Positions 44,658-63,859 of a stretch of DNA of 64,000 bases are shown here, in pieces (position 1 is the stretch's first letter; each line of letters opens with the position of its first letter). The notes under the pieces are model-generated. The model was not told the origin of the DNA and searched no databases. It saw nothing but the letters and a program-made list of their open reading frames with translations. A program made the position numbers and the translations under genes. The DNA lies in assembly GCF_035917275.1 (NCBI RefSeq), contig NZ_CP108508.1:8122001-8186000 (forward strand). Reading direction: 5' to 3'. Source of the stretch: Streptomyces sp. NBC_01237. Its GTDB lineage: Bacteria > Actinomycetota > Actinomycetes > Streptomycetales > Streptomycetaceae.

Positions 44658-45392
44658 ATGGCACGGATCACCGCGCTTATCAACCGCAAGGGCGGAGTCG
44701 GGAAATCGACTCTCACTGTCAACACGGCAGCCGTCACTGCCCACGTTCTGGGCGAGTCTCCGGAAGGTGACCCGCACTACGTTGCCGCAGTATCTGCCGA
44801 CCCCCAGGGCTCCACCACCTGGTGGTCACAGCGGGTCGGCCAGGACCTTCCCTTCTCTTTCGAGCAGATCAAATCCAGGGAAGACCTGGAGCTGTTCTCC
44901 CACCTCAAGAAGTCCCGGAAGGTCAAGCACGCGTTCGTCGACACTCCCGGATGGATGGACCTGCCCGAGGATGAGAAGGAAGAAGCCGGCGACCCCTTCG
45001 GCATGAGCGCCGCAGCCGATGCGATGCGTGCCTTGCTGGCCAACACCGACGATGTCGTCGTCCCTCTTGAGACCGAACCGCTGGGCTTCATGCCGACACG
45101 CGACACCATCGAAGAAGTGGTCAAGCCTCTCGGACTCCCCTACATCGTCGTCATCAACAATTGGGACCCCCGCGACGGCGACGCCGACCTCGTCCAAACC
45201 AAGGACTTCGTCCGCTCCCAGGGCTGGAACCTGGCGAACACTGTCGTCCGGCACTACAAGGTCCACACCCGAGCAGCGCTTGAAGGCACCGTCGTCACCC
45301 AGTACAAGAAGAACCGGGTCGCGATGGAGGCCCGCGAGGACTTCTACCAGCTCGCCCTAGAGCTCGGTGCTGGGAAGAAGGAACGCCGCTGA
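44658..45392 (+). CDS. parA: ParA-family partition ATPase
   Basis: A 244-residue Walker-type partition ATPase. Deviant Walker A is KGGVGKST at residues 11-18 (Lys11 signature lysine and Lys16), and a VDTPGW strand acts as the switch. The VVVPLETEPLGFMPTRDTIEE and VINNWDPRDGD segments are typical of plasmid ParA. There is no N-terminal HTH, so it is the short type Ib-like or chromosomal-like form. It overlaps parB as ATGA and is preceded by two parS-like sites. Confidence 0.85.
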   Translation: MARITALINRKGGVGKSTLTVNTAAVTAHVLGESPEGDPHYVAAVSADPQGSTTWWSQRVGQDLPFSFEQIKSREDLELFSHLKKSRKVKHAFVDTPGWMDLPEDEKEEAGDPFGMSAAADAMRALLANTDDVVVPLETEPLGFMPTRDTIEEVVKPLGLPYIVVINNWDPRDGDADLVQTKDFVRSQGWNLANTVVRHYKVHTRAALEGTVVTQYKKNRVAMEAREDFYQLALELGAGKKERR

Positions 45393-46537
45393 TGGCCGCG
45401 AAGAAGCCCTGGACCGATTTGCTCGACGGACCCGGAAAGACCGGGAAGAAAGGTGCGGTCGCAGCCGAAGAGCCGGCCCAGCCCGTCAGCCCGCCTACGA
45501 CCGTGTACATGCACACAGTCGTAGGGAGCCCGGACAACCCGCGCACCGAACTCGACTACAGCGACGACGACGCTGATTTTCGCGAGCTGAAGAGCTCCAT
45601 GAAATCCGTTGGCCAACTGCAGCCAGCAGTCGCGATGTCGAGCGAGGCGTTTCAGCGAGCCAAACCGGAGCATGCCGACGCAGTGAAGGACGCCGACTGG
45701 GTCATCGTCCTCGGTAACCGACGTCTTCACGCCGCCCGCCAGCTCGGCTGGACCAAACTTGAGATCCGGGTCCGAGACCGCCTTGGCGATGAAGGCGACG
45801 ACAAGGTCGACGAAGCCGTCATCATCGAGAACATCCACCGCAAGAACATTCCGCCCTACAAGGAAGCGGAGTTCCTACAGCGGATGGTGGATCGACACGG
45901 GTCTCAGGAGAAGGTCGCCGAACGCATCGGCAAGTCACAGATGTACGTCTCCAACCGCCTGGCGCTGCTCAACCTGGCCCCGGAGCTCAGAGACGTGGTC
46001 GACACCAAGCAGATCAAGGTGAAGACAGCCGAGCAGATCGCCAAGATCAAGGATCCAGAACAGCAGAAGGCCAAGGTCGCAGAGGAACTGCATAGAGCCT
46101 CTCAGCCGAAGGAACGAAAGCCTCGGGGGCCGAAGTCAGGCGCGGCCACTGCCTTGGTTCAAAACCCGGTTTTGAACCAAGGGGCACCCGAGCCAGTCGA
46201 GACCCTGACCGCACCTACGTCCTCCAGCCAGAACCAAGGACCGCTGACACGCAGCCCTGTGCCCGAGCCACGTCCCGGAACCGATGAGCCTCAACCTGCA
46301 GCTGGAGAGACGTCGTCCCTTGCGGTGCCGTGGGACAACGGAGCCAGCCTCATGGACCTAGCCTTCGCCCGACTGGACGACCGGCAGCGAAGCTTCTTCA
46401 TTCAGCGCTACTTCCAGCGAAGCCAAGGCGTGGAACAAGTAGCAGCAGACATGAAGGGGCAGCTTCGACCTGAGGACTGCTCTACCTTGGCTGCGATCCT
46501 GCAACGGGTCTCCAACCTCATGACCATGGACACGTAG
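45392..46537 (+). CDS. parB: ParB-family centromere-binding protein
   Basis: A 381-residue protein. The ParB/Spo0J core: ELDYSDDDADFRELKSSMKS, then VIVLGNRRLHAARQLGW (catalytic GxRRxxA-type CTPase motif GNRRLHAA), ENIHRKNIPPYKEAE, and an HTH at about 165-200 (GSQEKVAERIGKSQMYVSNR). After a variable linker the C-terminus has a dimerisation-type helix. A third parS-like palindrome lies within the linker codons at 46152-46182. ATGA overlap with parA shows one operon. Confidence 0.85.
   Translation: MAAKKPWTDLLDGPGKTGKKGAVAAEEPAQPVSPPTTVYMHTVVGSPDNPRTELDYSDDDADFRELKSSMKSVGQLQPAVAMSSEAFQRAKPEHADAVKDADWVIVLGNRRLHAARQLGWTKLEIRVRDRLGDEGDDKVDEAVIIENIHRKNIPPYKEAEFLQRMVDRHGSQEKVAERIGKSQMYVSNRLALLNLAPELRDVVDTKQIKVKTAEQIAKIKDPEQQKAKVAEELHRASQPKERKPRGPKSGAATALVQNPVLNQGAPEPVETLTAPTSSSQNQGPLTRSPVPEPRPGTDEPQPAAGETSSLAVPWDNGASLMDLAFARLDDRQRSFFIQRYFQRSQGVEQVAADMKGQLRPEDCSTLAAILQRVSNLMTMDT
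46152..46182. promoter_or_regulatory. parS-like palindrome 3, inside parB
   Basis: 15-bp perfect arms (CCTTGGTTCAAAACC and inverse) around a central C, encoding ALVQNPVLNQG in the ParB linker. It is the longest of the three copies. Confidence 0.65.
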
Positions 46538-47751: not shown

Positions 47752-47804
47752 CGTACGACTGATCGGCCTTTTCTTGCAGGTCAGAGCCGTGTGACGTGGT
47801 CTCC

Positions 47805-49766
47805 ATGACAGTGGATATCAGTGTTGTTCGGGACGGTCAGATGCACCGCTACTACCTGCGCGAGACCGTCGTCGGCGACGGCCACCGCCCGGCCCGCACG
47901 CCGCTGCGCGCCGCCCAGGAGCAGGCCGGGGTCCCGGCCGGGCGATGGATGGGCCGCGGCCTGGCCGCGCTCGGACTCGCACCGGGTGAGGAAGTCACCG
48001 AGAGCCAGTTGCGGAACCTCTTCGGCGAGCGGGGCCGCCACCCGTACGCGGACCGCATCGAGGCCGACCTGCTCGCCGAGGGCGCCTCCCCGAAGAAGGC
48101 GTTCAAGGCCGGCGCCCTCGGACGCCAGGTGACGGTCACGGGGGTCGACTTCGTGTTCCGGCCGCAGCCGACGATCTACCTCCTGTGGGCGCTGGGGGAC
48201 GAGGAGACCAGCAGGGTGATCGAGGCCGCACACGAGCGCGCGATCGTACGGGTGCTGGAGTGGATCGAGGACGAGGTCGCGGTGATCCGGTACGGCAAGG
48301 ACGGCATCTACCGGGTCCGGCCGCCCGGCGGTCTGGTCGCCGCCCGCTTCCGCCACTACGAGGCACGCTCCGGGATGCCCTTGCTCCATGACCATCTGAT
48401 CCTGTCCGTGAAGGGGCAGCGCCTGGACGGGAAGTGGGGCTCGATCCACACCACGGCCCTGCACGAGAGCACGGTCGCGGCCTCCGCGCTCTACAACGAG
48501 CTCGTGGCCGCGGAGGTCTGCCAGACGCTGGGGCTGGCGACCGAGCCGCGCACCGTCACCCCGGGGCGCCGGCCGGTCATGGAGATTGCCGGGGTGCCGC
48601 ACGAGCTGATCCGCTGGACCTCCCGGCGCAGCGACCAGATCGCCGCCTGCCTGGCAGAGCTGGAGCACGAGTACGTCACCGCCGTCGACGACGACGGCGA
48701 GCCCAAGTTCCTGCCCGTGGTCTCCGAGCGGGCCCGCGCCAAGCTGAACCAGATCGCCGCCCGCAAGACCCGCCCGCCCAAGCAGAAGACCCGGCCGCTC
48801 GCGCAGCTGCGCGCATGGTGGAAGACGAGCGCGATCCTCACCTCCGGGGTCGCCGCCGACACCATCAACTCCCTCCTCAAGCACGCCCGCGCCGCGGCTG
48901 CCGCGATCCGGGCCCGGGTCATGGCCGTGGTCGACGTCGCCCTGGCGGCCGTCGATGTCGCCGCGACCGTGTTCGTGATGAACAAGGGCGGGCGGTTCCA
49001 CCGCAGGCACCTGCTCGCCGAAGCCCGACGCCACCTCGCCCTCGTCCAGCGCGGCCGCCGCCGCGACCCCGGCTTGGACGACCGGATCGTGGCCGCCGCC
49101 ATCTCCACCTACTGCCTGGACATCAGCGAACCGAAGACCGTACGCGGCCTGGAGGCCGGCTACCGCCTCTACACCGCCCGCTGGGCCCTGTCCGACCTCA
49201 CCGGCCGACGCCGCCCACCCACCCCCGTCCCCGACCCGGACGGGCAACCCCCGGCCGATCCCGGCGAGCCGGCCGCACCCCAGCCCTCGGGCCAGGACGC
49301 GGGGGAGTGGGAGATACCCCGCATCCCGCTCCAGTACGACCGCGCCGTCCTCGCCGGCGCGGTGGTGCGGGAGAAGCTGCGCACCGCCGTCGTGCGGGGC
49401 CGGGGGTACGACGTCGTCGCGCATCAGCAGGCGGCGATGCCCGAGCTGCTGCTCGGGCATCGGGACGCCGCTCCCGGGGACGACGATCAGGAGCCGGAGG
49501 CCGGGGGTCAGGAGGCGGTCGACTTCACGGAGCTGCGGGCCCTGAAGGCGTCCCGCACGGACGTGGAGGCCCTGGACTTCACCGCCGAGCAACTGCGCCG
49601 CGCGACGGAGGTCTTCACGAAGGCCGGCGACGAAGCCGCCGCCAGGACGAGGAAGTCCACCGGCCCCCAGGACGCTCGCGCACCGCGCCCGGTGCGCGAG
49701 GACGACCAGCGGGCGCACCGCCCCCAGCAGCCGGACCCGCATCGTGGGCCGGAAGCCGGCCGCTGA
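47805..49766 (+). CDS. MobF/TrwC-type relaxase without helicase domain
   Basis: A 653-residue protein; start taken at the ATG at 47805 because it gives the usual short N-terminus MTVDISVV then Tyr16-Tyr17, the nicking tyrosines. The metal site is H184 (RHYEARSG) with H195 and H197 (LLHDHLIL), characteristic of TrwC relaxases. Residues 330-450 are helical and basic; the C-terminus is Pro/Asp/Arg-rich and lacks the RecD-like helicase motifs of full-length MobF proteins. It would nick oriT and lead single-stranded DNA into a type IV system. Its coexistence with TraB is notable. Confidence 0.75.
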   Translation: MTVDISVVRDGQMHRYYLRETVVGDGHRPARTPLRAAQEQAGVPAGRWMGRGLAALGLAPGEEVTESQLRNLFGERGRHPYADRIEADLLAEGASPKKAFKAGALGRQVTVTGVDFVFRPQPTIYLLWALGDEETSRVIEAAHERAIVRVLEWIEDEVAVIRYGKDGIYRVRPPGGLVAARFRHYEARSGMPLLHDHLILSVKGQRLDGKWGSIHTTALHESTVAASALYNELVAAEVCQTLGLATEPRTVTPGRRPVMEIAGVPHELIRWTSRRSDQIAACLAELEHEYVTAVDDDGEPKFLPVVSERARAKLNQIAARKTRPPKQKTRPLAQLRAWWKTSAILTSGVAADTINSLLKHARAAAAAIRARVMAVVDVALAAVDVAATVFVMNKGGRFHRRHLLAEARRHLALVQRGRRRDPGLDDRIVAAAISTYCLDISEPKTVRGLEAGYRLYTARWALSDLTGRRRPPTPVPDPDGQPPADPGEPAAPQPSGQDAGEWEIPRIPLQYDRAVLAGAVVREKLRTAVVRGRGYDVVAHQQAAMPELLLGHRDAAPGDDDQEPEAGGQEAVDFTELRALKASRTDVEALDFTAEQLRRATEVFTKAGDEAAARTRKSTGPQDARAPRPVREDDQRAHRPQQPDPHRGPEAGR

Positions 49767-54264: not shown

Positions 54265-55446
54265 CTACCGGAGAGAGGCAGGCAGCTGCGTATCCCTGTC
54301 AACGATGGCTGAGTCAACCTGATGCCTCGTCAGGCCCTCCGCCTGGCGCAGGTCCGCCCGGCTCAGGTCCGCGCCCAGCAGGACCGCCTGGCGCAGGTCC
54401 GCGTCGCTGAGGTCCGTGCCGCGCAGGTCCGCGCCGCTCAGGCCCGCCCGGCTCAGGCCCGCGCCGCTCAGGCTCGCGAAGCTGAGGTCCGCGTCGCTGA
54501 GGTCCGTGCCGCGCAGGTCCGCGCCGCGCAGGTCCGCGCCGCTGAGGTCCTTGCCGCGCAGGTTCACGTCGCTCAGGTCCGCGCCGCTCAGGTCCGCGCC
54601 GCTCAGGTCCGCGCCGCGCAGGTCCGCGCCGCTCAGGCCCGCCCGGCTCAGGCCCGCGAAGTTGAAGTCCACGTTGCTCAGGTCCACGTTGCTCAGGTCC
54701 ACGTTGCTCAGGTCCACGTCGCGCAGGTCCGCGCCGCGCAGGTCCGCGCCGCGCAGGTCCGCGCCGCTCAGGCCCGCCCGGCTCAGGTCCGCGCCGCTGA
54801 GGTCCGCGCCGCTGAGGTCCGCGCCGCTCAGGTCCACGTCGCTCAGGTCCGCGCCGCTCAGGTCCGCGCCGGGCACGTCTGCGCCGTTTAGGTCCCTCGT
54901 TGGGAGGAGGCTGATGTTGGGGAGTTTGGCGGCGTGGAGGTCAAGGAGGAAGGTGCCGTCCCGGGTTGTGTCGCGGGTGGCGAGGACGGTGAGGGCGGCG
55001 TGGACGTCGGCCGGGACGTCCTGGCCCTTCGCGGGGGGTTTGGCGGCGTGGGTGCGGATGTAGGTGGCGAGGACGTTGGCGATGGTGGGCTGGTCACGGC
55101 GGGAGTCCTGCATGATCCGCTGCAGGGCGTAGATACCGCCCAGCCGCACGTCCATCTTGTCCTCACCGAGGTTTCCCACCGCCGCCGTGTACCGGTCGGT
55201 GATCTGCCCCTCCTTGGCCAGCGCCCGGTCATCCCGCGCCTGCTCGTTGGCCTGTCTGGTCTGAACGTTCGAGTACCAGAGACCCACCACCGCCACCACA
55301 GCGGCGACCACGACAGTGAACAACTCGATCCGCCGCGCCCAGTCCAAACCCTCCGGGGCAGTAGCAGGGGCAGCGCCCGGGCCGGTCCGGGCAGTGAGTC
55401 GGGTGGTACGGCGTAACCGCAGGCGACGGGCAGGCGTGGAAGGCAT
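54265..55446 (-). CDS. Membrane-anchored pentapeptide-repeat protein
   Basis: A 393-residue protein from the ATG at 55446 (an ATG/TTG at 55467 is also possible). A membrane segment is at about 40-60 (ELFTVVVAAVVAVVGLWY), then a helical domain with RYTAAVGNLGEDKMDVRLGG and IYALQRIMQDSRRDQ. From about residue 190 to the end come more than 30 pentapeptides of the A(D/N)LSG type, expected to fold as a right-handed beta helix. Such proteins often mimic DNA or inhibit gyrase, but the membrane-anchored form with this helical domain is common in actinobacteria and of unknown role. Confidence 0.75.
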   Translation of the reverse strand: MPSTPARRLRLRRTTRLTARTGPGAAPATAPEGLDWARRIELFTVVVAAVVAVVGLWYSNVQTRQANEQARDDRALAKEGQITDRYTAAVGNLGEDKMDVRLGGIYALQRIMQDSRRDQPTIANVLATYIRTHAAKPPAKGQDVPADVHAALTVLATRDTTRDGTFLLDLHAAKLPNISLLPTRDLNGADVPGADLSGADLSDVDLSGADLSGADLSGADLSRAGLSGADLRGADLRGADLRDVDLSNVDLSNVDLSNVDFNFAGLSRAGLSGADLRGADLSGADLSGADLSDVNLRGKDLSGADLRGADLRGTDLSDADLSFASLSGAGLSRAGLSGADLRGTDLSDADLRQAVLLGADLSRADLRQAEGLTRHQVDSAIVDRDTQLPASLR

Positions 55447-55647
55447 ACCTGTATTCGATCCCAACACCCCACTCCGGCGCAGCGATTCGGTTCTATCAAG
55501 CCGAGCTCCCAGTGCGGCACACCCCTGGTGTGGCGGGTTTCCGGGAGCGGCGGCACTCCAGGGATGCCGACCCGCTCTGCACCTGCCTTCTGGCTGGATT
55601 GCTCACCTGTAGGGGTGTCTGCCTCGTACGGTGAGGTGGTGGACGAC

Positions 55648-57285: not shown

Positions 57286-57681
57286 ATGAAACCGAACACG
57301 CACACCGTTCTCCACGACCCCCACGGGCTGTTCGGAGCGGACTTACCCCTGGACCGCGCCCCCTATGAGCGCTTGGTCGCCGCGGTTCTGTCCTGGACCG
57401 ACCCGGCCGCCCTCACCCCGCACGACTTCGAGCAGATCGCCCTGCAGCTGACCGGCCACGCCCGCGCCGTCGCCACCGACGTCCGCCACCACACCGATCT
57501 CCTCGACGAGGACACCGGGCCCCGCGCCCTGGCCGAGATCATCCTCGCCGAAACACAACGCCGCCTCAGCACACCCCACCAGGGCACCCTTCGCAGCGTG
57601 CAGAACCGGGCCCGCCTCGTCCGCGCCCTCTACGAACGCCTCGACCGCCTCCAGACCGCCCCCGACGACGCGACCACCTGA
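57286..57681 (+). CDS. DUF6415-like protein
   Basis: A 131-residue helical protein from the ATG at 57286 (GAGGG site). TPHDFEQIALQLTGHARAVA, RALAEIILAETQRRLS and VQNRARLVRALYERLDRL match the helical pattern of the DUF6415 family, a Streptomyces group present in many copies and sometimes annotated with natural-product genes. The actual role is unknown. The second 98-bp repeat copy with a terminator follows it. Confidence 0.55.
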   Translation: MKPNTHTVLHDPHGLFGADLPLDRAPYERLVAAVLSWTDPAALTPHDFEQIALQLTGHARAVATDVRHHTDLLDEDTGPRALAEIILAETQRRLSTPHQGTLRSVQNRARLVRALYERLDRLQTAPDDATT

Positions 57682-59704: not shown

Positions 59705-60074
59705 CCAACCACCCTAGCGATTTGGTGAGTTGGCGACTCCCGATCCGTGGCCTCAGCCGGTTCGGAACGCGAAGAGTTTCAGGACCGGGCGATGCCTGAC
59801 AGGTCAGCGTCGCAGCTTGCCTCATTTCGGCGCCTTCGTATTCGGTCGCGTCTTCGTGCTCGGTCATGCAGCCCCTCCCGGTTGATCTCTCCCACCGTTG
59901 TACCGGGCGCGCCGCACAAGCGGGGCGCCTGCGGATTCCTGGGCCGGAAAGTTGTCCACAGATCGCAGCTCAGGGCCCTAAATTCCGCTGAATCTATGCA
60001 CAGGCCAACGGCTTTACGGTTCGTGTCCGCTTCCGGGTGTGAGGTGCCGGGACGCAGACCGAAAGGGCACGGCC
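59705..60074. promoter_or_regulatory. Leader of the FtsK-like operon
   Basis: No gene is supported. The segment GAGTTGGCGACTC near 59729 resembles part of an iteron from 52 kb. AT-rich stretches around 59960-60010 are plausible promoter DNA for the operon starting at 60075. Confidence 0.35.
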
Positions 60075-62027
60075 ATGGCACGGACGAAGTTCGACAAGCA
60101 GGTGGATGAGTCCGCCGACACTCTCGCGCGAGGGATCGCCCGGATGCTGGCCGGCCGGGACCTGGACGGGGTCCGCCGTACGGACGCGACGTTCTGGCGT
60201 GCGGGCACCCGGGTCCTGCCGGCGGTGGAGGGCAAGGTCCGCCGCCGCTCCTACAAGCCCGGGTGGCGCCGGTTGTCCTTCCGCCTCGCCCTTGGTGGCG
60301 GGGTCGCGGAGAGCGGATACCTGACCACCCGGGACCTGGACGCCACCCGCGAGACCCTGAGGGAACTGACGGAGCTGTGGGAGAACCGCGAGGCGGCGCT
60401 CGCCGCACTGGAGCCCGCCGGGATCGGCGCGGCCTCCGTCCTCACGGTGGGTACCGCGACGTACATGGTCCTCACCCGCGAGCGCCGGGAGCTGATGCGC
60501 GAGTGGGTGCGCCCGCTGCACGAGGCCCTGCACCAGCCGCTCGGGCTGGCGGAGCAGACCGACCCGCGCCGCTACCTCCGCGTCCCGAAGAACTTCTCCG
60601 ACGACGACGCACAGATACGCATCGACCTGCCCACCCGGCTCGGGTTCTCCCGCGACGTGGTGGCCGACCTCATCACCCAGAAACTCGCCCTCCAGGGCGT
60701 CACGTTCTCCTGGCACCCGGAGGGCCGCAAGCCGTACGTGCTGGTGAAGAAGACCCGCAAGCCCCCGGCGAAGGCCCTCTTCAAGGACCCCAAGACGCGG
60801 GAGCTGGTGGCCAAGGCCAAAGAGTCCGCGCCCATCATCGGGTTCGGTGCCGGCGGGGGGATCGTCTCCGTCGACCTGGACGCCGAATCCCCGCACATCC
60901 TGGTCAACGCCTCCACCGGCGGCGGCAAGTCGGTGACCCTGCGCTGCATCGCCTGCCAGATGCTCCACCACGGCAGCCACGTCTTCGTCCTCGACACCAA
61001 GCGGATCTCCCACCCGTGGGCGCGCGGCGTTCCGAACGTCACCTACTGCGCCGACATCGCCGACATCCACGACCAGCTCATCGCGCTCGGCATGGAAGGC
61101 CGACGCCGCACCCGGGTCGCCGACGAACTGGGCATCGGCGCCGACCCCAAGGCCATCGGCCCCCGGCTGCTGATCCTCCTCGAAGAGATCAACGCGACGA
61201 TGAAGCAGCTGGCCCGCTACTGGGAGAAGACCCGCGAGCCCGGCGACCCGAAGGGCTCCCCGGCCCTCGACGCGCTCAACGAGATCCTCTACATGGGGCG
61301 CCAGCTGCGCATGCACGTCCTCCTGGTCGCCCAGTCCGCCACCGCCCGCGCCCTCGGGGGCCCGGAGGTCCGCGAGCAGTTCTCCACCCGCATCCTCGCC
61401 CGCTACAGCGTCAACGCCTGGCGCATGCTCGCCCCCGAGGTCCACCCCGCGCCGAAGTCCACCAAGCACCCCGGCCGCGCCCAGGTCGTCAGCGGCGGGT
61501 CCGCGCGCGAGACACAGATCCTCTTCTTCACCGAGGACGAAGCCCGCGAGTGGGCCAGCACCGGGAAGGCTGCCACCGAACCGCAGCACGCGGGCCTCCC
61601 CGCGCAGCCGGGCCCGGCGGTGCTGCACAAGCCTGCCGTCCCGCCCGCCGACTCCCTGGCCGAAGCCTGGAGCGACCCGGCCCTCCCGCCCACCACCCCC
61701 GATCCGGCGCAGGCCGCCGATGTCGACGTCCTCGCCGACGCCTGGAACACCAAGCCCCCGGCCGCCGATCCGGGCAACCCCGCGGCAACGCCGCCGGCGA
61801 ACCCGGCCCCGGTCGACGACGACCAGGCGCTGGGACTGCGCGAGGCCCACCAGCACCACCTGCCGGACATCACCGTCGCGGCGCTCCGCTACGCCCGCGC
61901 CAACGACCGCACCTTCCCCAAGCCGGTCGACAAGCGCGGCACCGAACTCCTCTACCGGGTCGGTGACCTCAAGCGCTGGGCACGCAACCGGCCCCGCGCC
62001 GCCACCGGCACCACCGACCTCGACTGA
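60075..62027 (+). CDS. FtsK/SpoIIIE-like DNA translocase ATPase
   Basis: A 650-residue protein from the ATG at 60075. A helical N-terminal part (about 1-110) with a single hydrophobic stretch at about 113-133 is followed by a domain with HEALHQPLGLAE and RVPKNFSDDDAQIRIDLP (about 148-190). The motor starts at about 255, with Walker A TGGGKSVT (281-288, Lys285) and Walker B LLILLEE (365-371), plus FVLDTKRISHPWA and VLLVAQSA. After a Pro/Ala-rich linker the C-terminus (about 590-645) holds a small HTH-like helical domain (ITVAALRYARANDRTFPKPV). The next two genes are shorter copies of the motor core. Confidence 0.7.
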   Translation: MARTKFDKQVDESADTLARGIARMLAGRDLDGVRRTDATFWRAGTRVLPAVEGKVRRRSYKPGWRRLSFRLALGGGVAESGYLTTRDLDATRETLRELTELWENREAALAALEPAGIGAASVLTVGTATYMVLTRERRELMREWVRPLHEALHQPLGLAEQTDPRRYLRVPKNFSDDDAQIRIDLPTRLGFSRDVVADLITQKLALQGVTFSWHPEGRKPYVLVKKTRKPPAKALFKDPKTRELVAKAKESAPIIGFGAGGGIVSVDLDAESPHILVNASTGGGKSVTLRCIACQMLHHGSHVFVLDTKRISHPWARGVPNVTYCADIADIHDQLIALGMEGRRRTRVADELGIGADPKAIGPRLLILLEEINATMKQLARYWEKTREPGDPKGSPALDALNEILYMGRQLRMHVLLVAQSATARALGGPEVREQFSTRILARYSVNAWRMLAPEVHPAPKSTKHPGRAQVVSGGSARETQILFFTEDEAREWASTGKAATEPQHAGLPAQPGPAVLHKPAVPPADSLAEAWSDPALPPTTPDPAQAADVDVLADAWNTKPPAADPGNPAATPPANPAPVDDDQALGLREAHQHHLPDITVAALRYARANDRTFPKPVDKRGTELLYRVGDLKRWARNRPRAATGTTDLD

Positions 62028-62113
62028 ACGGCCCCGGCCGCTCCAGCCGACACGCCCTCGCCCGGAGAACACCCGGTTCACCAGGCACACCACAGAAAAG
62101 GAACACCGCCGCC

Positions 62114-62935
62114 ATGTGGAAGACCACCAACAAGAGCACCCTCCCGCAGCAGCTGCGCCTCACCGACCCGGGCGTCCGCGAGCAGCTGGAAGCGCTGCCC
62201 GCCTCCCAGGTCCTCATCGGCCACGGCACCGACGGGCAGCCGGTCTGCGTCGACCTGGACAACGACTCGCCGCATGTCCTGGTCTACTCCGCCTCGGGCG
62301 GCGGCACCTCCACCGCCCTGCGCACCCTGACCGCCCAGCTCCTGCACAACGGCGGGCACGTCCTGGTCCTCGACTTCAAGCGCATCTCCCAGTCGTGGGC
62401 GCGCGCCCTGCCGACGGTGACCTACCGGCGCGACATCGACGACATCCACGACGCCCTTCTCGGCCTGAGCGCCGAACTGAAGCGCCGCATCCACCACGCC
62501 GACGAGCACGGTGACACCGAAGACCTGCCCCGGCTGACGGTGGTGTTCGAGTCCGCCGGCCACACCCTGCGACAGCTGGCCCGCCACTGGGAAAAGGTCC
62601 GCCAGGCGGGCGACCCGAAGACGTCCCCGGCCGTGAACGCGTACGAGGAGCTCCTCTTCGCCGGGCGCGAGGTCCGCATCCACATCCTCGCCGGCGCCCA
62701 GAGCTTCAGCGCCGCGCTGGGACGCGAGCACTTCTCCACCGTGCTCCTGGGACGGGTCACCACCCGCACCTGGAGCCAGGCCGCCCCGCAGGTCGCCACC
62801 GTCCCGAAGGGAAGCGCCCACCCGGGCCGCTTCCACGCCGTGCAGCGCGACACCGCCCACCCCACGCAGGTCCTGCTCCTGAGCGAGACCGAAGCCGCGA
62901 CGTGGGCCGCCGCCCCGCAGACCGAAAAGGACTGA
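62114..62935 (+). CDS. Degenerate paralogue 1 of the FtsK-like motor
   Basis: A 273-residue protein, ATG at 62114. It aligns with residues about 250-540 of the preceding ATPase: VCVDLDNDSPHVLVYSASGG compares with VSVDLDAESPHILVNASTGG, then VLVLDFKRISQSWARALPTV, QLARHWEKVRQAGDPKTSPA and KGSAHPGRFHAVQ. The Walker A lysine is replaced (GGGTST, Thr65) and the Walker B acids are lost (LTVVFESAG), so ATP hydrolysis is not expected. It lacks the N- and C-terminal domains. Probably a regulatory or structural partner of the active motor. Confidence 0.7.
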   Translation: MWKTTNKSTLPQQLRLTDPGVREQLEALPASQVLIGHGTDGQPVCVDLDNDSPHVLVYSASGGGTSTALRTLTAQLLHNGGHVLVLDFKRISQSWARALPTVTYRRDIDDIHDALLGLSAELKRRIHHADEHGDTEDLPRLTVVFESAGHTLRQLARHWEKVRQAGDPKTSPAVNAYEELLFAGREVRIHILAGAQSFSAALGREHFSTVLLGRVTTRTWSQAAPQVATVPKGSAHPGRFHAVQRDTAHPTQVLLLSETEAATWAAAPQTEKD

Positions 62936-63043
62936 GGCCGAATCGGCCGGACCGGGCCCTGTCCGGTCCGGCCGACACGATCCCCCTCGACCTGGTGAAC
63001 ACCCTGCTCCCCAGGCACAGCACAGAAATGGAACACGGGCACC

Positions 63044-63859
63044 ATGACGAACACGACCGCGCTCCCGCAGATGCTGCACTTCACCGACCCCGGCCTGCGC
63101 GAGCAGATCGAGGCGATGCCCGAAGGCACCGCGCTGATCGGCATCAGCACCACCGGCCGCGCCATCGCCGTCGATCTGGACGCCGAATCCCCGCACGTCT
63201 TGGTCTGCACCGCCACCGGCGGCGGCAGCACCACGGTCCTGCGCTCCCTCACCGCGCAGTTCCTGCACCAGGGCGCCCACGCCCTGGTCCTCGACGTCAA
63301 GCGGATCTCGCACCTGTGGGCGAAGGCGCTGCCGACGGTGACCCACCGCGGGAACATCGCCGGCATCCACGACGCCCTCGTCCATCTCGCCGACGAGCTC
63401 AAGCGCCGCAACGAACTCGCCGCCGACGAGCTCGCCGACGTCCCGCGGCTGATCGTCGCGATCGACAGCGCCAACGGCACGCTGCGCCAGCTCGCCCGCT
63501 ACTGGGAGACGTTCCGGCAGCAGGACGACCCCAAGACGTCCCCGGCCGTCACCGCGCTCGAGGAAGCCCTCTGGACGGGACGCTCGGCCCGCGTCCACGT
63601 TCTTCTCGACGGCACGCCCCAGACCAGCGTCCTCGGAGCGGCGGCCCACGAGCTGTTCGCCACCGTGATCCTGGCACGGGTCACGGCCGACACCTGGCGG
63701 CGCCTGGCCCCGATAGCAGGCCCCGCCCCGAAGAGCAGCCGGCACCCGGGCCGCGCCCACGTCGTCCAGGAGGGCATTGCCCACCCGACGCAGGTCCTGC
63801 TGATGACCGACGCCGAAGCAGCTGACTGGCTCGCCGCCACGGCGGCCGGGAAGAACTGA
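63044..63859 (+). CDS. Degenerate paralogue 2 of the FtsK-like motor
   Basis: A 271-residue protein, ATG at 63044. Same core again (IAVDLDAESPHVLVCTATGG, VLVLDVKRISHLWAKALPTV variants, QLARYWETFRQQDDPKTSPA, KSSRHPGRAHVVQ) with Walker A reading GGGSTT (no lysine). It keeps an Asp in the Walker B strand (LIVAIDSAN) but not the following Glu. The leaders of paralogues 1 and 2 share AGGCACA, CACAGAAA and GGAACAC just before the start, so the gene was duplicated with its ribosome site. Confidence 0.7.
   Translation: MTNTTALPQMLHFTDPGLREQIEAMPEGTALIGISTTGRAIAVDLDAESPHVLVCTATGGGSTTVLRSLTAQFLHQGAHALVLDVKRISHLWAKALPTVTHRGNIAGIHDALVHLADELKRRNELAADELADVPRLIVAIDSANGTLRQLARYWETFRQQDDPKTSPAVTALEEALWTGRSARVHVLLDGTPQTSVLGAAAHELFATVILARVTADTWRRLAPIAGPAPKSSRHPGRAHVVQEGIAHPTQVLLMTDAEAADWLAATAAGKN

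Follow-up and report, generated by a model that had tools for sequence, protein, structure and literature searches.

The common picture of FtsK-family ring translocases is one of six equal subunits, and whether all of them must fire is a long-standing question. To our knowledge FtsK rings are built from one active type of subunit, and we know of no partner gene devoid of the Walker A lysine for motors of the FtsK/TraB kind. In EccC/EssC, an active motor domain is followed by degenerate ones in the same chain, and the degenerate domains have been proposed to be regulatory (PMC11154593). Here we describe three consecutive genes, A, B and C, in a window of 64,000 nucleotides of Streptomyces sp. 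NBC_01237 (bases 8,122,001-8,186,000 of contig NZ_CP108508.1), of which only the first encodes a motor core with that lysine. Our reading, to which we give about one chance in two, is that they constitute one conjugative DNA-translocation module of the kind carried by Streptomyces linear plasmids, here lodged in a chromosome arm, with B and C as partner subunits.

A (60075-62027; an additional GTG lies upstream in its frame, at 60039) encodes a FtsK/HerA/TcpA-like motor of 650 amino acids, with an N-terminal domain, a motor core (about residues 230-500) and a C-terminal tail. B (62114-62935, 273 amino acids) and C (63044-63859, 271 amino acids) follow after gaps of 86 and 108 bases, all three frames being open on the + strand, and in the three-way alignment they correspond to the motor core of A alone, without its approximately 230 N-terminal and 150 C-terminal residues. 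B and C share 56% identity over 259 amino acids (E 8e-98), and C is 46% identical to the core of A (E 1e-75), far beyond chance. The P-loops read TGGGKSVT in A, SGGGTSTA in B and TGGGSTTV in C, the lysine of A (K285, codon at 60927-60929) being occupied by Thr65 in B (62306-62308) and Ser62 in C (63227-63229). An initial annotation, made from the sequence alone, had described three consecutive motor-core genes with the lysine only in the first, and its coordinates, frames and P-loops were confirmed; the DxKRISxxWA and HPGRA segments that it had regarded as kept are recovered by the alignment as DxKRIS and HPGR, common to the three proteins. FtsK motors have a similar DPK segment. That annotation had also considered the Walker B acids of B and C as changed, which holds for the catalytic glutamate but not for the first acid, which is retained (LLEEIN in A, VFESAG in B, AIDSAN in C).

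Pfam and NCBIfam models place the three proteins loosely, and only around the P-loop, among HerA/FtsK/TraD/EccC-like motors. A carries both the Walker A signature GxxGxGK[S/T] and the catalytic glutamate of the FtsK/HerA superfamily (TGGGKSVT, LLEEIN). B and C share the RecA-like motor fold of that superfamily and lack the Walker A lysine and the catalytic glutamate of active ATPases, being thus classed as pseudo-ATPase relatives and not as active members; the structural model of C has a complete motor-core fold that matches TcpA/FtsK motors, with EccC/EssC structures among the best matches. Judged by these residues, A is the intact motor, and B and C are paralogues of its core alone that lack two residues on which ATP hydrolysis depends in cis.

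The lysine loss extends beyond this locus. A search with C, limited to candidates of 0.55-1.75 times the query length and for that reason without full-length motors, gave 226 proteins, of which the 120 listed are nearly all from Streptomyces where named. Near other motors there are two further short families without the lysine (hereafter lysine-less): D, found from pFRL6 and comprising 26 proteins, and E, that of pRL2.14 on pRL2, comprising 15. The lysine-less relatives thus form four families, B to E. The initial annotation had asked whether homologues of the short genes bear a normal Walker A lysine, and none does so among the matches listed in searches with C, D and E (0/161 relatives, a few of them without the loop). 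A residue census was made on the listed relatives and our own loci, dropping rows with fewer than 170 aligned positions and excluding one divergent row (class D?). At the lysine position it found Thr in 35, Ala in 4 and Ser in 2 of the 42 B proteins (1 gap), Ser in 114 of the 118 C proteins (4 gaps, that is, 114/114 readable ones), Thr in 26 and Met in 1 of the 27 D proteins, and Ala in all 16 E proteins. The 48 cores of class A all come from loci and are defined by the lysine, their 48/48 being by construction. On these sequences the loss is old and fixed, and not a local decay.

Short frames with the lysine do occur, alone in their stretches (L048, 319 amino acids; L067, 362; L100, 429, stop to stop; L and G numbers are our handles for loci and genomes, C numbers after a G for contigs), as well as a 296-amino-acid frame with a normal lysine in G573. 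A 41-kb contig of the source genome itself carries another FtsK-like motor whose lysine is normal (L129:5725-7932, G000:C4); contigs C2 and C3 of this genome show identical positions of a MobF relaxase and may be mutual copies. A further lysine-less frame within Streptomyces, of 506 amino acids (L117), is only distantly related. In the class scan, where at most six candidates were scored per genome and 33 matches were listed, 26/394 genomes matched, and no lysine-less short gene was seen outside Streptomyces among the P-loops of its loci and a few more, weak long-frame matches in G441, G692, G133, G679 and G533 lying outside this reading. Every readable P-loop outside the genus has the lysine, save for Arg in domains of long EccC-like frames (L116, L124). 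Those two frames contain several motor domains, some with Arg for Lys in Walker A, and have an EccC-like look.

The census also covers the other active-site positions. Glutamate occupies the second Walker B position in all 48 A proteins, in 2 of the 42 B, 33 of the 118 C and 5 of the 27 D proteins and in none of the 16 E proteins, so the catalytic glutamate persists in 33 of the 118 C proteins and the lysine in none of the readable ones; the first acid is D or E in 42/42 B, 116/118 C, 27/27 D and 16/16 E. In C, the GGGSTT positions stand at the 0-14th entropy percentile of the core and the catalytic-glutamate position at the 94th (99th in B): the altered loop of C is itself conserved, GGGSTT being nearly invariant, while the glutamate position is among the most variable in the protein. 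Gln420, the likely sensor, occurs in 47 of the 48 A proteins and in 21 of the 42 B proteins, and is outside the six commonest residues in C. In FtsK the finger is an arginine at the end of helix 4. In A the corresponding residue is Arg409, at the end of the helix that precedes strand 4; its counterpart in the C model, Arg180, lies between helix 167-178 and strand 184-189. This arginine is conserved in all 48 A and all 16 E proteins, in 114/118 C, in 36/42 B and in 12/27 D. By this position, by analogy with EccC5, for which a paper seeks the finger at the end of helix 4, and by the FtsK motif, Arg409 is a putative trans-acting arginine finger. Altogether, B and C retain the P-loop glycines, the following Thr/Ser and the first Walker B acid, and most of them also have the arginine before strand 4.

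Selection was estimated by codon maximum likelihood (Goldman-Yang model, GY+F3X4). Over 20 matched loci, omega (dN/dS) is 0.061 for A and 0.147 for C, and over 13 matched loci 0.080 for A and 0.243 for B; fixing omega at 1 fits worse (twice the log-likelihood difference, 575 for C and 252 for B). In 40 codon bootstraps, B ranges from 0.195 to 0.314 and C has a median of 0.156 and a lower bound of 0.116, with one replicate at 1.0. Under a Muse-Gaut (MG) model that omits kappa the estimates are higher, at 0.12-0.16 for A, 0.32 for C and 0.49 for B. The Nei-Gojobori (NG86) medians are 0.33 for A (350 pairs), 0.72 for C (274) and 0.97 for B (90). At face value that of B would come close to the refuting condition of the initial annotation (dN/dS near 1), but a neutral simulation with the same third-position composition yields NG86 medians of 1.82-1.96 (5th percentile 1.19-1.26), so that this estimator is biased here, and codon likelihood was used instead. 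B and C are under purifying selection, with a constraint weaker than that on A. The dN/dS comparison proposed in the initial annotation therefore comes out far below 1 by codon likelihood and near 1 by the biased method, and its idea of pseudo-ATPases under selection is supported by these omegas (0.24 for B, 0.15 for C) together with the absence of the lysine in relatives.

Concerning the arrangement of these genes, counts are given for non-redundant Streptomyces loci; the genus scan, in which at most six candidates were scored per genome, found any match in 50/392 genomes, many with fragments only. A, B and C occur together in seven loci (the window, L012, L013, L015, L069, L077, L130), in this order and on one strand in the six checked by script, L130 reading alike. 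A with an intact C and no B is found in 14 (L006-L011, L049, L052, L070, L074, L076, L079, L080, L081), A being damaged in L052, L070 and L076; A with a broken C in five (L073, L078, L087, L088, L090); and a broken A with C in L005 and in L057, C being without its N-terminal residues in frame in the latter. Seven loci have A and B without C (L082-L086, L089, L091), the tail of A being out of frame in L083 and L091. Four are odd: L016 has A and a broken B, L058 a broken C and the tail of A, L059 has B and a piece of A, and L075 broken B and C. A accompanies D in three loci (L061, L072, L098) and E in one (L071). Finally, in two loci (L099, L104) a more distant lysine-bearing motor is accompanied by two other lysine-less genes, which in L104 lie about 3.7 kb beyond it. 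The plan of one motor and two lysine-less genes (1+2), whose recurrence the initial annotation had wished to see checked along with the lysine losses, thus recurs in nine loci of three types, though as a minority plan, 1+1 being commoner. L076 was considered as a natural A-C fusion that could be evidence of contact, and was dropped because the N-terminal and C-terminal ends of A are out of frame there.

Lysine-less genes stand near lysine-bearing motors in several deep lineages. In a tree of 58 sequences with the P-loop and Walker B columns removed, two lysine-less clades were recovered, one of B, C and D with both dead genes of L099 (98.5/99; SH-like approximate likelihood ratio test/ultrafast bootstrap, SH-aLRT/UFBoot) and one of E with both dead genes of L104 (99.2/100), within which B/C, the L099 pair and the L104 pair represent different duplications. 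The motor of L099 falls in another lysine-bearing clade (99.3/100) than A of pFRL6, both being near D-type dead genes, and that of L104 (99.8/100) in another than the motor of pRL2, both near E-type ones. Since different motors stand beside like dead genes, we infer that pairings between live and dead genes have been reshuffled; the backbone of the lysine-bearing motors is poorly supported. FastTree on 157 cores united all 109 lysine-less ones in a single clade (0.993). That the lysine was lost only once was nevertheless not upheld, because without the catalytic columns either E falls among the lysine-bearing motors, as in a reduced tree, or two lysine-less clades arise, as in the better-sampled tree of 58 sequences. 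As the trees disagree on E and approximately unbiased (AU) tests without those columns reject none of the arrangements tried, we claim only that the lysine was lost one or more times, two being the best-supported count on these sequences. Mantel correlations of distances are 0.69 between A and B (13 loci) and 0.39 between A and C (20 loci).

The genomic surroundings suggest in which process the module would take part. The genome comprises 10.19 Mb in 4 contigs, and the A-B-C site is chromosomal, not on a plasmid, about 45 kb from the end of a contig of 8,231,337 bases. A MobF/TrwC relaxase gene (47796-49766, + strand; PF08751, E 1.1e-59) lies some 10 kb upstream of A and is possibly part of the same transfer region. 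In a collection restricted to plasmids, 65 records have a C match; those opened are linear save one (L078, circular), with the genes often about 5-20 kb from an end. Chromosomal copies are also present in the genus scan, as in G158:C1, where A and C lie about 24 kb from both chromosome ends (L052, L053), as in a terminal inverted repeat. A MobF relaxase often accompanies the loci. Some of them have, in full order, genes for this relaxase and a replication-relaxation protein, then A, (B), C and, farther on, a terminal helicase, and others show parts of this order; a search of the source genome for a Replic_Relax gene, run without a positive control, gave no match. On pRL2 and five plasmids of 54-72 kb, the only FtsK-family matches are A and its short paralogues, for which reason A is probably the transfer motor there. 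Homologues of A are annotated as pRL2-11, DUF87 protein, Tra protein or cell division protein FtsK, and by the nearby relaxase and these annotators' names A would be a Streptomyces conjugation motor required in plasmid transfer. A has a single weakly hydrophobic stretch as a possible membrane anchor (near residue 107, mean hydropathy 1.55), and a PADLOC search for defence systems returned only local P-loop matches, the best being mad8 (E 2.3e-10) for A.

A working motor with one or two sisters that seem ATP-dead yet are kept by selection, as carried by linear plasmids and chromosome ends of Streptomyces, suggests inactive partner subunits in a conjugation motor, and that B and C are partners of A is, from the sequences, probable. 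How they would act is a more tentative matter. In a mixed ring, which we hold possible though rather unlikely, B and C would sit next to A protomers, and the arginine of B or C equivalent to Arg409 would act as a finger completing the active site of a neighbouring A; B and C would fire no stroke themselves, and the asymmetric ring would regulate or anchor DNA transfer. With the lysine and mostly the glutamate gone, B and C are not expected to run a normal hydrolysis cycle, and they may also bind nucleotide without burning it. We prefer the mixed ring as the simplest mechanism in which every kept part has a use: the phosphate loop, the first acid and, where present, as it mostly is, the arginine. 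Slightly more doubtful still is the wider picture of an asymmetric conjugation motor of one ATP-burning and two ATP-dead subunit types from separate genes, in which three or more separate duplications would have produced the second dead copy (B/C and the pairs of L099 and L104), and the dead subunits would have been paired with quite different active motors.

Several observations weigh against this reading. The A-B and A-C correlations could stem from co-inheritance alone, the B-C correlation (0.43, p 0.066, 6 loci) not being significant. The lysine position of B is loosely fixed (T, A or S; 44th entropy percentile). Arg409 is at the 33rd (C) and 47th (B) percentiles, an ordinary retention for these cores that lowered our confidence in the mixed ring, and family D keeps it in just 12/27. 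R439, present in 44/48 A, is lost in B (1/42) and C (0/118), as it is in E, while D keeps it in 27/27. Sixteen related Streptomyces motors (L060, L062-L067, L092, L096, L097, L100-L103, L105, L106) have no lysine-less neighbour in the fetched stretch, some of these stretches ending at contig ends. Lastly, C is frame-broken in 6 of the 30 C loci (L058, L073, L078, L087, L088, L090), and seven more, excluded from the 30, hold C pieces only (L014, at a contig edge, L018, L035, L037, L040, L044 and L047). As to the frequent stops that the initial annotation had named as a sign of lost constraint, C frames are broken in a minority of the 30 C loci, with fragments elsewhere.

It is also conceivable, though improbable, that B and C form an ATP-independent ring or collar of their own stacked on A, as a cap, a DNA guide or a relaxosome adaptor, comparable to the degenerate EccC/EssC domains but acting in trans. 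The complete motor-core fold of the C model and its EccC/EssC matches are in line with this, as are the absence from B and C of the N- and C-terminal parts of A and the regulatory role proposed for the degenerate domains in the EccC/EssC passages (PMC11154593). On pFRL6, where TcpC-like and VirB4-like genes surround A and D, the D gene lies between these two, which indicates that D may serve other parts of the machine. A passive ring would need no Arg409, yet most B and C proteins keep it.

Equally unlikely in our view, B and C could be soluble inhibitors or timers: by capping or poisoning the A ring as it assembles they would restrict transfer, whether for self-repression, for fertility inhibition or to exclude like plasmids. 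Short, core-only copies without the lysine have the shape of a dominant-negative subunit, and both genes are preceded by a conserved leader, at 62067-62113 before B (GAACACCCGGTTCACCAGGCAC... to the start codon) and at 62997-63043 before C, both on the + strand. As the motif occurs at these two sites only in the window, it is not present before A, which suggests separate control. Among 38 leaders (24 of C and 14 of B; intergenic stretches 62023-62113 and 62936-63043 in the window), 10-base blocks in the last 70 bases have an identity of 0.72-0.94, as compared with 0.56-0.58 in the outermost 20 bases and 0.69-0.87 in the first codons. The leader may be a shared translational or operator site, RNAalifold finding no common RNA fold in the 38. 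The gap between B and C contains, at 62945-62973, a strong hairpin rich in GC (GGCCGGACCGG ... CCGGTCCGGCC), and similar ones precede C in some relatives, e.g., L012 and L069. An inhibitor, however, has no obvious need for the invariant altered P-loop of C, and a single one would not require B and C together, as they are in seven loci.

That B and C are functionless, decaying tandem duplicates is very improbable, for in spite of the broken C frames, the C pieces and the NG86 values of 0.72 (C) and 0.97 (B), the decay of a fresh duplicate is disfavoured by the codon-likelihood omegas (0.147 and 0.243, the neutral NG86 simulation giving 1.8-2.0), by the census, with Ser in 114/114 readable C and no regained lysine seen, and by the deep lysine-less clades of the trees. 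Moreover, nine of these 30 C loci have a broken A or none (L005, L052, L057, L058, L070, L075, L076, L078, L090).

The window also contains a plasmid-type partition pair of ParA-like and ParB genes (44658-46537, + strand), a gene for a pentapeptide-repeat protein of 400 amino acids (54265-55467, - strand; PF00805, E 6e-57) and, upstream of the module, a DUF6415 gene (57286-57681), a frame that resembles it by eye lying downstream of the module (L004:12417-12995). Several relatives have a DUF6879/helix-turn-helix/DUF6415 set downstream of the module.

Should the partner-subunit reading be true, live and dead subunits provided by separate genes would make the question of whether all must fire testable by gene deletion and reconstitution, and a component of conjugation would have been overlooked in the main antibiotic-producing genus, on its gene-exchanging linear plasmids and chromosome ends.

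Compared with known systems, the closest relatives of A are the FtsK-like Tra proteins of the pRL2.11 type from the linear plasmids pRL2, pFRL3 and pFRL6, of whose family A is a member. These plasmids likewise have a short lysine-less paralogue, of family E in pRL2 and of family D in pFRL3 and pFRL6, and only some relatives of this type have two. D is annotated as a hypothetical protein in plasmid records and often as cell division protein FtsK in the database, and pRL2.14 only as "pRL2-14", none of these names mentioning the lysine loss; in titles and abstract starts of the open-licence literature, weak evidence as it is, lysine-less FtsK-like paralogues beside a Streptomyces motor are not named. 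TcpA, the coupling protein of pCW3, matches A over residues 247-309 only (phmmer, E 2.7e-6) and differs from B and C, which have lost the lysine and the catalytic glutamate. Across 14 plasmids of relatives, neither a TcpC-family protein nor a VirB4-type AAA_10 above the cut-off was matched (0/14 each), divergent or unlinked partners remaining possible; weak AAA_10 matches on 9 of the 14 all fall within A, B or C. Lysine-less partner genes beside the motor would distinguish these loci from the double-strand DNA motors FtsK and Streptomyces TraB, for which none is known to us. The nearest precedent is that of EccC/EssC of type VII secretion, where FtsK-like motor domains are degenerate as well (PMC11154593). 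This precedent, with the EccC/EssC matches of the C model and the commoner 1+1 plan, speaks against the view of the initial annotation that no named family accounts for a 1+2 arrangement. Its pseudo-ATPases under selection are supported, and the mixed ring, cap or DNA-site reader that it proposed would be possible forms of their action. In EccC/EssC, however, active and degenerate domains are fused in one polypeptide that exports proteins, whereas A, B and C are encoded by three genes of their own within transfer regions of the plasmid type, and what B and C have suffered is a swap of the lysine in an otherwise kept loop. Degenerate domains within the EccC/EssC chain were thus already known from that source; what would be new here, as read from the sequences, are dead partners of a conjugation motor encoded by separate genes, in four families.

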